From: Methylohalomonas lacus
GTDB taxonomy: Bacteria > Pseudomonadota > Gammaproteobacteria > Methylohalomonadales > Methylohalomonadaceae
Direction of reading: 5' to 3'
DNA: 64,000 nt
Assembly (NCBI RefSeq): GCF_024808875.1
Contig: NZ_JANUCT010000016.1
Coordinates: 1 to 64,000 of the forward strand
A program made the position numbers and the translations under genes. How positions within the stretch are numbered: the first letter of the stretch is position 1; every line of letters begins with the position of its first letter. Below, one piece after another: positions 50,115 through 57,038 of this stretch. The notes under the pieces are model-generated. The model did no database searches, was not told the DNA's origin, and was given only the letters and a program-made list of their open reading frames with translations.

Positions 50115-50188
50115 TGGAGCGGGTGATGGGAATCGAACCCACATTAAAGGCTTGGGAAGCCTCCGTTCTACCATTGAACTACACCCGC
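50115..50188 (-). tRNA. tRNA-Gly (anticodon CCC)
   Basis: A 74-base cloverleaf on the minus strand: acceptor GCGGGTG/CACCCGC with discriminator T and encoded CCA, D-arm TAGTTCAATGGTAGA, anticodon stem-loop GAGGC-TTCCCAA-GCCTT with CCC in the anticodon position, and T-loop GGTTCGATTCC. It reads GGG codons. Confidence 0.95.
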
Positions 50189-50204: not shown

Positions 50205-50210
50205 ATTATA
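50205..50210 (-). promoter_or_regulatory. -10 box of tRNA-Gly
   Basis: A perfect TATAAT on the minus strand, about 17 bases before the mature tRNA 5' end. The -35 is poorly conserved. The predicted transcript start is near 50198. Confidence 0.5.
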
Positions 50211-50237
50211 CCTGTTCATGTGTCTGTGCACAGGACC

Positions 50238-50253
50238 TGTGAACCGGGTCACA
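50238..50253. promoter_or_regulatory. CRP/Vfr-type binding site (TGTGA-N6-TCACA)
   Basis: TGTGA-ACCGGG-TCACA is a perfect match to the palindromic consensus of cAMP receptor protein and the related Vfr; the symmetry extends one base further on each side plus a C/G pair. A TAATAT/TATAGT box at 50305-50313 would put the site about 71-74 bases upstream of transcription start for the receiver gene, a spacing used by class I CRP promoters. It also lies upstream of tRNA-Gly on the other strand. The link to either gene is inference. Confidence 0.6.
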
Positions 50254-50304
50254 GGACGTCACCCGGGCAGGCGCCGAGATGCTGGCGACGTCGTTGAATT
50301 AAGC

Positions 50305-50313
50305 TAATATAGT
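50305..50313 (+). promoter_or_regulatory. Candidate -10 region of the receiver/metallo-hydrolase operon
   Basis: The overlapping hexamers TAATAT (50305-50310) and TATAGT (50308-50313) lie in the only AT-rich part of the gap. No good -35 is found 16-18 bases upstream, as expected for an activator-dependent promoter. The leader would be about 135 bases. Confidence 0.4.
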
Positions 50314-50451
50314 TGCTTCTTTGGGGGGAAGCACACCGGAGCCTGACGGCGCCGGTGATGTGTATCAATTATCGTATTCAATAGCAGGCTGTTCGATCGG
50401 GCTTGATGCCCGGTCTATGCAACGGGAACTACGGAACTGGATAACACCGGC

Positions 50452-50826
50452 ATGAATCGCTCGAATCCCGTCGTGGTTGTGGTCGATGACAGTCCATCGG
50501 TCAAGTCGCTGTTCGAGCACAGTACCGCTAGTCTGGGCGTCGAGTTGAAAACGTTCAGCTCGGCCGCCAGTTCGCTGGCCTATCTGAACAGTCAGAAACC
50601 GGCCCTGCTGTTTCTCAACATCATCATGCCGGACAAGGATGGCCTGACTTTCCTGCGTGAACTGCGCGGTAATCCACTGCATGAAGATACTGCGGTGATT
50701 ATGATAAGCTCCAAGGATTACGCGCAGGATCGTCATGCCGCGTGGGAGCTAGGCGCACTGGAGTTCATATCCAAACCCATGCCCATGCAGGCGATTACTG
50801 AAGCCGTCAAAAAACATATCAGCTAA
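50452..50826 (+). CDS. Single-domain receiver protein lacking the phospho-acceptor Asp
   Basis: A 124-residue CheY-like protein. The acidic pair Asp12-Asp13 (VVDDSPSV), the Ser of MISS (86-87) and Lys108 in ISKP are all present, but the residue that should be the phosphorylated Asp is Asn56 (LLFLNIIMPDKDG). It therefore cannot be phosphorylated in the normal way and is best called a pseudo-receiver. It has no output domain. The next gene starts 21 bases later in the same direction, so the two are likely co-expressed. Confidence 0.9.
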   Translation: MNRSNPVVVVVDDSPSVKSLFEHSTASLGVELKTFSSAASSLAYLNSQKPALLFLNIIMPDKDGLTFLRELRGNPLHEDTAVIMISSKDYAQDRHAAWELGALEFISKPMPMQAITEAVKKHIS

Positions 50827-50847
50827 CCACGCAAGCCGACTGATCAG

Positions 50848-51759
50848 ATGAGCGAAGCCTATCTGCGTTTCTGGGGGGTACGCGGTTCGTACTCGGCCCC
50901 GTTTGCGTCGCATCTTGATGTCGGCGGCAATACATCCTGTGTTGAAATTCGTGCCGATGGCCACCTGCTGGTGTGTGATGCCGGCACCGGCATCATTCCC
51001 TTTGGCCAGCATTTAATGCAACAGGACGGCATTCGCGAAATGCTGGTCATCCTCACGCACTACCACTGGGATCACGTCTGTGGCCTGCCGTTTTTTCTGC
51101 CAGCCTTTGCCGAGGACTGGCGACTGAATTTCTTTGGTCCCGGTCAGAATGCCGGCGAGATCGAACGCCATGTATCAGCACAAATGCGGGCGCCCTATTT
51201 TCCGGTCAGCACCGACACCTGGCACGCCGCAGTGGATTACCTGCAACCGCCCGGCGGCAACCTGGAACACGGTCCCTTCCGGATCAGCTACCAGAACGTC
51301 CATCACCCGGGTATAACCTACGGCTATCGGATCAATCTCAATGGCAAGGTCATCGTTTACATTTCCGATAACGAATGCCTGTTTCTCAACAAGTCCATCG
51401 AACAGCGCTACCAGGAATTCAACAGCGAGGAACAGCGTTTATATGATTCGATGAAACGCGAGGAATACGACTCGGCGCTACAATTCATGCAGGGCGCCGA
51501 CATCCTCATACACGATGCCCAGTACACGCCGGAAGATTACGAGAAAAAACGCGGCTGGGGACATTCGTGCTACATCGACACGGTTAACTCCGCTATCGAC
51601 GCCGGAGTAGGGCAGCTGTACCTGTACCACCACGATCCGAATTACGACGATGAACGCATCAACGCGATTCACCAGGACTGCCTGCGCATCATCGCCGAAC
51701 GCCAGTCAGCGCTGGACTGTCATATAGCACGCGAAGGCCTGACACTGGACCTCGCCTGA
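50848..51759 (+). CDS. Metallo-beta-lactamase-fold hydrolase
   Basis: A 303-residue protein with the metal-binding motif THYHWDHVCG (HxHxDH), an N-terminal RFWGVRGSYSAP that opens the fold, and further ligands in NVHHPG and YISDNE. Layout and start resemble phosphodiesterase-type members such as PhnP and class III cyclic-nucleotide phosphodiesterases more than lactamases. The substrate cannot be told from sequence. It forms a two-gene unit with the pseudo-receiver upstream, which may regulate it by binding. Confidence 0.88.
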   Translation: MSEAYLRFWGVRGSYSAPFASHLDVGGNTSCVEIRADGHLLVCDAGTGIIPFGQHLMQQDGIREMLVILTHYHWDHVCGLPFFLPAFAEDWRLNFFGPGQNAGEIERHVSAQMRAPYFPVSTDTWHAAVDYLQPPGGNLEHGPFRISYQNVHHPGITYGYRINLNGKVIVYISDNECLFLNKSIEQRYQEFNSEEQRLYDSMKREEYDSALQFMQGADILIHDAQYTPEDYEKKRGWGHSCYIDTVNSAIDAGVGQLYLYHHDPNYDDERINAIHQDCLRIIAERQSALDCHIAREGLTLDLA

Positions 51760-56528: not shown

Positions 56529-56604
56529 TGGTGGCCGGGGACAGAATCGAACTGCCGACACAGGGATTTTCAGTCCCCTGCTCTACCAACTGAGCTACCC
56601 GGCC
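56529..56604 (-). tRNA. tRNA-Phe (anticodon GAA)
   Basis: A 76-base cloverleaf on the minus strand: acceptor GGCCGGG/CCCGGCC with encoded ACCA end, D-arm TAGCTCAGTTGGTAGAGCA, anticodon loop CTGAAAA with GAA, and T-loop AGTTCGATTCT. It reads UUU and UUC. Confidence 0.97.
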
Positions 56605-56912
56605 AACTTTTACTACTCATGACGAATCCGGATTACGTGGCGCCCGGACTGAAAATGGATTTACAGCCCTGCCTACCCTGTCTCTACGCGACCCCGCTAC
56701 CCGGCCAAATTTTACTACTCATGACAGAATCCGGATTACGTGGCGCCCGGACTGAAAATGGATTTACAGTCCGGCCTACCCTGTTGCTGTGTGACCCCGC
56801 TACCCGGCCAAATTTTTATTTTGGATGGTTGTTCGGACATTTTGCTTATGCCCGGAACTGATAACGGAGTTTCAGCCCTGCCTACCCTGTCACTGCGCGA
56901 CCCTGCCACACC
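56605..56912 (-). repeat. Three tandem ~103-bp repeats carrying decayed tRNA-Phe 5' halves
   Basis: Directly upstream of tRNA-Phe (in its direction of transcription) a unit of about 103 bases is repeated: CCCGGCCA recurs at 56598, 56700 and 56803, and the inner block GCCTACCCTGT at three matching places; the third copy is more diverged. In tRNA sense each unit starts GGCCGGGTAGC, like the tRNA, then has tRNA-like GTAGAG and CTGTAAATCC with extra bases. Each also contains a CCGGACTGAAAAT-type imperfect palindrome, best preserved at 56747-56774. No protein frame is credible here. Confidence 0.75.
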
Positions 56913-57038
56913 GAACAGGTGTTTTTTCTGATACTGCGGGCGGGGCGGGCGATGCGAAGGGCGTATTAAAGCCATCGACGGCGCGTCCGTCAAGCCATAA
57001 CCGACCCGGATTGCCAATTTTCAGCCATGGCCGGCGTT
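56913..57038. other. Spacer between the tRNA-derived repeats and yggX
   Basis: No gene or repeat is recognised. A short T-run (GTTTTTTCTG near 56921) follows the repeats, with a GC-rich stretch after it. Confidence 0.35.

Follow-up and report, generated by a model that had tools for sequence, protein, structure and literature searches.

The window analyzed here is a 64,000-nt stretch of the Methylohalomonas lacus genome (contig NZ_JANUCT010000016.1, positions 1 to 64,000). Between positions 50452 and 51759, it carries two genes on the forward strand. The first encodes a receiver domain and nothing else (Pfam Response_reg, PF00072; 76.6 bits versus a cut-off of 30.2). The second, which starts after an intergenic gap of 21 bases, is intact and encodes a hydrolase of the MBL fold that matches Lactamase_B_2 (PF12706; 49.9 bits) and Lactamase_B in Pfam. 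Both the coordinates and the Pfam matches confirm the gene pair described in an initial annotation of this DNA. Upstream of the receiver gene, in divergent orientation, there is a tRNA-Gly(CCC) gene, absent from the initial annotation, with its own TATAAT at 50205-50210. The features of the locus are as follows:

50115-50188, minus strand: tRNA-Gly(CCC), divergent, a synteny marker of the locus (ARAGORN, Rfam); 22 of the 25 close homologue loci that were scanned carry it close to the pair
50238-50253, no strand: TGTGAACCGGGTCACA, CRP/Vfr-type palindrome with a predicted centre at −71.5 (exact match; equal spacing in locus L021 only)
50305-50310, plus strand: −10 element TAATAT, the window version of the family element TT(A/G)GTGTANNNT (aligned homologous upstream regions)
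50317-50451, plus strand: predicted leader, ~135 nt (start inferred from the −10 element)
50452-50826, plus strand: stand-alone pseudo-receiver gene, 124 aa (Pfam PF00072)
50617-50619, plus strand: Asn56 codon (AAC), phosphorylation-site position (alignment)
50848-51759, plus strand: MBL-fold hydrolase gene, 303 aa, predicted phosphodiesterase (Pfam, NCBIfam, and phmmer matches; structure neighbours; AlphaFold2 model)
51058-51075, plus strand: HYHWDH metal-binding motif, H71 to H76 (alignments; H71, H73, D75, and H76 invariant)

The predicted leader does not match any known RNA element in Rfam, and a promoter scan of the stretch returned neither a consensus −35/−10 pair nor a terminator. A second small palindrome, CTGTGCACAG, is located at 50224-50233, flanked by the tRNA promoter on one side and the CRP-type site on the other. 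Elsewhere in the window, downstream of tRNA-Phe(GAA) (56529-56604), imperfect direct repeats with CTACCCGGCCAA...GGATTACGTGGCGCCCGGACTGAAAATGGATTTACAG lie in the region 56600-56950 and resemble a duplicated 3′ end of this tRNA gene together with its flank.

The receiver and MBL genes form a conserved unit

Homologues of the MBL gene were detected at E ≤ 1e-25 in 40 of 369 sampled gammaproteobacterial genomes. In all close homologue loci, which come from diverse gammaproteobacteria and were assembled from relatives and a species-genome scan, a receiver gene is located immediately 5′ of the MBL gene. The pair is a conserved unit, usually found beside tRNA-Gly(CCC). The question posed by the initial annotation, whether the two genes are neighbours in relatives, is thus answered in the affirmative by the close homologues and also by Rec-MBL fusions. 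One pair, 67% identical, comes from a contig whose title assigns it to a Klebsiella pneumoniae metagenome-assembled genome (MAG); the contig looks mislabelled, since the pair is otherwise found in uncultured gammaproteobacteria.

Distant MBL homologues include single proteins with the receiver placed before (L084-L087) or after (L089) the MBL domain. L088 has an MBL-receiver-GAF arrangement, and its receiver lacks the Lys and has Glu where the phosphosite would be; L090 and L093 are MBL-GAF proteins in which the stretch between the two domains matches a receiver weakly or not at all. Some distant homologues are unpaired. Rec-MBL fusions are common in other classes of the phylum, where they carry Asp. 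In fused proteins from gammaproteobacteria and other classes, the Asp, the acidic pair, the Thr/Ser, and the Lys are kept, nearly all scored fusions being canonical, and the linker between the domains is very short. Histidine kinase (HisKA/HATPase) genes adjoin three fused copies (L101, L102, and L103). An AlphaFold model of a fused Rec-MBL protein, built from four sequences, reached a pTM of 0.66 and was too uncertain for the interface to be read. Two MBL relatives from other classes that are not fused, L116 and L120, directly adjoin HDOD-domain genes, a second recurrent partner of the MBL family.

A CRP-type palindrome occupies a candidate class I position

The sequence at 50238-50253 is an exact TGTGA-N6-TCACA palindrome that ends 51 bases 5′ of TAATAT. 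Of 45 homologous upstream regions, 18 carried the strict form of the family element to which TAATAT belongs, compared to 0.29 in shuffles. The transcript would be expected to start at ~50317, which places the palindrome centre at −71.5, one of the four positions (−61.5, −71.5, −82.5, and −92.5) that we took as the class I CRP register upstream of a −10 element. The perfect palindrome, the AT-rich −10 region, and the class I-compatible spacing pointed out in the initial annotation were therefore all recovered, the start site on which the spacing depends being a predicted one.

The 2.76-Mb genome contains only three exact copies of the palindrome, about as many as base composition predicts, and presence of the motif alone is therefore not significant. 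The other two copies are also intergenic; one (L031) lies upstream of a gene for a PAS sensor protein next to siroheme synthase, and one (L030) just downstream of an antiporter-like gene. When one mismatch was allowed, simple pattern counts, on which any enrichment of CRP sites rests, yielded 36 sites in the genome versus 24 for a reversed control.

A second locus, L021, whose MBL protein is 66% identical to that of the window, carries CGTGACGTGGGTCACA, likewise 51 bases from the −10 element; chance would account for 0.0005 such loci among the other 20. Of the 20 other promoters aligned on the common −10 element, the remaining 19 have no similar site there, among them that of L016, the sister of L021. 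TGTGATGTAGTTCACA in L017 and L024 was left out of this count because it lies on the far side of tRNA-Gly from the pair. The idea that the palindrome is a regulatory element conserved across the family was therefore rejected, and the initial annotation fails on its own criterion, conservation of the palindrome in relatives.

These counts lend weight to a reading, independent of the others considered below, in which the palindrome matches by chance or is part of the nearby tRNA-Gly promoter, and transcription of the pair proceeds from the common −10 element without CRP. We consider its chances serious, if somewhat short of even. The identical spacing in L021 speaks against it, as does the position of the palindrome relative to the tRNA-Gly promoter, about −47.5, which is not a usual CRP register, compared to −71.5 for the pair. 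The genome also encodes a true CRP (the L033 protein) with the matching recognition helix CSREMVGR, as well as an FNR. Since the site recurs in L021 only and a CRP is encoded, CRP control is plausible for the window genome without being general to the family, and the CRP link is the weaker part of the account; the promoter alignments are best read as CRP control added in few lineages.

Cyclases are encoded as well. Class III cyclases are present in 32 of 32 genomes with the pair or a fusion versus 206 of 337 others (Fisher p = 7e-7), an association in which phylogeny and genome size are uncontrolled confounders. The window genome encodes five class III cyclase domains, and the presence of CRP and cyclases is in line with the cAMP-linked unit suggested in the initial annotation. 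Class I adenylate cyclase was considered as the linked cyclase and rejected, being found in just 15 of the 32 unit-bearing genomes and absent from this one. Among the pair-bearing genomes, many have recurring cyclase frames of ~305 aa, and at L046 a class III cyclase-FHA protein is encoded beside a PP2C phosphatase gene.

The MBL protein is a predicted cyclic-nucleotide phosphodiesterase

The THYHWDH motif and the other metal ligands of the MBL protein are intact. Residues T70-HYHWDH76 fit the [T/S]HXHXDH motif by which atypical class-II phosphodiesterases, Rv1339 and its relatives, are defined (PMC9293780); among these enzymes, YhfI prefers cAMP and cGMP (PMC9117128). The protein combines this motif with the PF12706 MBL fold, as YhfI and Rv1339 do, the motif being common to RNase Z and not exclusive to atypical class-II phosphodiesterases. 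In structure comparisons, the AlphaFold2 model (pLDDT of 86) was closest to YhfI (Z = 23.8; about 21% sequence identity) and to the RNase Z enzyme ZiPD (Z = 23.7), followed by PhnP, yeast PDE1, and Apyc1. The protein carries metal ligands as found in the YhfI/RNase Z/Apyc1 branch of phosphodiesterases and is read as a zinc enzyme that probably cuts cyclic nucleotides. The proposal that the enzyme hydrolyzes cyclic nucleotides thus remains plausible for what is a predicted phosphodiesterase.

The same split Rec-MBL unit could instead act on another phosphodiester or phosphoester, such as RNA, 2′,3′-cyclic nucleotides, or a PhnP-type substrate; in that case the pseudo-receiver would remain the partner of the enzyme, and any connection to cAMP would be incidental. 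The near tie between ZiPD and YhfI is consistent with this alternative, as are the best NCBIfam match, RNase Z (TIGR02651, 73 bits), and the presence of a PhnP-family diphosphatase and an arylsulfatase among the MBL relatives. The RNase Z match, however, is far below its cut-off of 292.95 bits. The cyclic-nucleotide reading has a shortfall of its own: the match to the cyclic nucleotide-degrading phosphodiesterase family NF041851 (40.3 bits) is also far below its cut-off of 400, and the substrate is a candidate one. The phmmer alignment to Escherichia coli ZiPD breaks at ZiPD residues 153-217, which we take to be the region carrying the tRNA-binding exosite arm of RNase Z, the arm itself being compared only through this break. 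The RNase Z score, the alignment break, and the co-occurrence of cyclases in all unit-bearing genomes speak against a different substrate, which we rate as less likely than not but with a real share of the probability.

The receiver has lost its phosphorylation site and is maintained

In the receiver of the window, Asn56 replaces the phosphorylatable Asp, while Asp12, Asp13, Ser86, and Lys108 are retained. The protein is therefore an aspartate-less pseudo-receiver and not a canonical phosphorylatable response regulator. The complete canonical set is present in relatives such as L002-L005, L022, and L068. The description of the receiver as non-phosphorylatable is thus correct for Asn56 but applies to a derived state only, since relatives of the lineage keep the Asp.

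Among paired loci, the phosphosite is Asp, Asn, or Ser. When these states were placed on a tree built from the MBL proteins only, five changes were required, compared to a mean of 20.3 for shuffled states. The Asn receivers of L023 and L025 are nested in an Asp group, separate from the large Asn/Ser group that contains the window. Two Asp receivers, L063 and L068, fall inside the Asn/Ser group; because their placement is weak, the order of the changes is unsure. Rec-MBL fusions outside the class have intact phosphorylation residues, and the pseudo-receiver is therefore, as judged from the alignments and the tree, the derived state, the Asp having changed to Asn or Ser at least twice. Since working switches in one-protein form exist elsewhere, the window lineage seems to have retained the partnership after the loss of the switch.

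For close pairs, dN/dS was 0.04-0.23 for Asn and Ser receivers and about 0.08-0.13 for Asp receivers. This similarity argues that the pseudo-receiver is maintained and the pair is under purifying selection; a decaying pseudogene was rejected on the same grounds.

DISCUSSION

Our preferred reading, to which we assign a probability of roughly 0.4, is that the locus encodes a response regulator in two pieces, with an MBL cyclic-nucleotide phosphodiesterase as the output, in which phospho-control has been lost and CRP control is a candidate replacement in this genome. The two genes would descend, by a split, from a response regulator whose output is an MBL-fold phosphodiesterase; the substrate would most likely be a cyclic mononucleotide, for example cAMP or cGMP. 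Relatives have a phosphorylatable receiver; outside the class, it forms one chain with the enzyme, and at some loci a histidine kinase is encoded alongside. With the change of Asp to Asn in the window lineage, the receiver would no longer be able to accept a phosphoryl group and may have been retained as a protein partner that fixes the hydrolase in one, probably active, state. Control would then shift to the amount of the pair that is made, and cAMP-CRP bound at −71.5 would switch the operon on, resulting in feedback on cAMP. As for the state of the enzyme, a locked-inactive receiver is chemically as reasonable as a locked-active one because Asn removes the negative charge. The observations on which the reading draws are the pairing, the fusions, the kinase neighbours of some fused copies, an Asp that is ancestral and was lost repeatedly, purifying selection, the fold, the metal ligands, the presence of CRP and cyclases, and the promoter spacing; contact between the two proteins, the active state, the substrate, the direction of control, and activation by CRP are inferred.

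A 2025 review calls the activation and inactivation of bacterial pseudo-receivers a mystery and also considers possible mechanisms, including action via protein contacts alone (PMC12632262). That possibility and the constraint on the receiver after phosphosite loss would suit a FrzS-like scaffold or localiser that places the hydrolase at another partner without an allosteric effect on catalysis, but we regard this as improbable, since the very short linker of fused Rec-MBL proteins suggests direct domain-to-domain control, even if split forms could still scaffold.

The MBL protein resembles the atypical class-II phosphodiesterases B. subtilis YhfI, M. tuberculosis Rv1339, and C. glutamicum CpdA in its fold, its motif, and its place on the RNase Z-like branch. 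Those enzymes, however, were described without a receiver partner, and the activity of the window protein is a predicted one. In Dictyostelium, a receiver controls a cAMP phosphodiesterase, RegA, via a phosphorelay (PMC11988041), but RegA combines both domains in one chain, its class I catalytic domain is unrelated, and its phosphosite is intact. The Bacteroidota protein PorX is a response regulator with a zinc phosphodiesterase output, which acts on cyclic and linear oligoadenylates (PMC11320123); its output domain belongs to the alkaline phosphatase superfamily, is fused to the receiver, and the protein is phosphorylatable. Dictyostelium GbpA and GbpB are MBL-type cyclic-nucleotide phosphodiesterases under a regulatory domain (PMC11988041), but they are regulated by cyclic-nucleotide-binding domains and have no receivers. 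Pseudo-receivers FrzS, NblR, WhiI, and CmrT share a receiver fold that lacks the phosphorylatable Asp or works independently of phosphorylation (PMC12632262); the reviewed examples are parts of larger proteins with DNA-binding or other domains, whereas the receiver of the window stands alone beside an enzyme gene.

The statement in the initial annotation that no described system has this composition should therefore be narrowed. Rec-MBL proteins, though uncharacterised, are widespread, and RegA and PorX are known cases of phosphodiesterases that are controlled by a receiver and use other catalytic domains. Our search, which lacked most subscription journals, found no paper on Rec-MBL response regulators or on HDOD-MBL pairs, and a prior description is possible.

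The receiver-MBL family offers a natural series, from fused Asp through split Asp and split Asn to split Ser receivers, with the same enzyme as a readout. If cAMP is the substrate, a receiver-linked phosphodiesterase would join bacterial cAMP signalling. The most far-reaching version, in which an MBL cyclic-nucleotide phosphodiesterase is receiver-controlled, the pseudo-receiver has become a permanent regulatory subunit in several lineages, and regulation has moved to cAMP-CRP transcription, is unlikely to hold in every part. If true, it would be a bacterial counterpart of RegA made from other parts, in which a phospho-switch turned into a constitutive subunit, with all steps preserved in living species.
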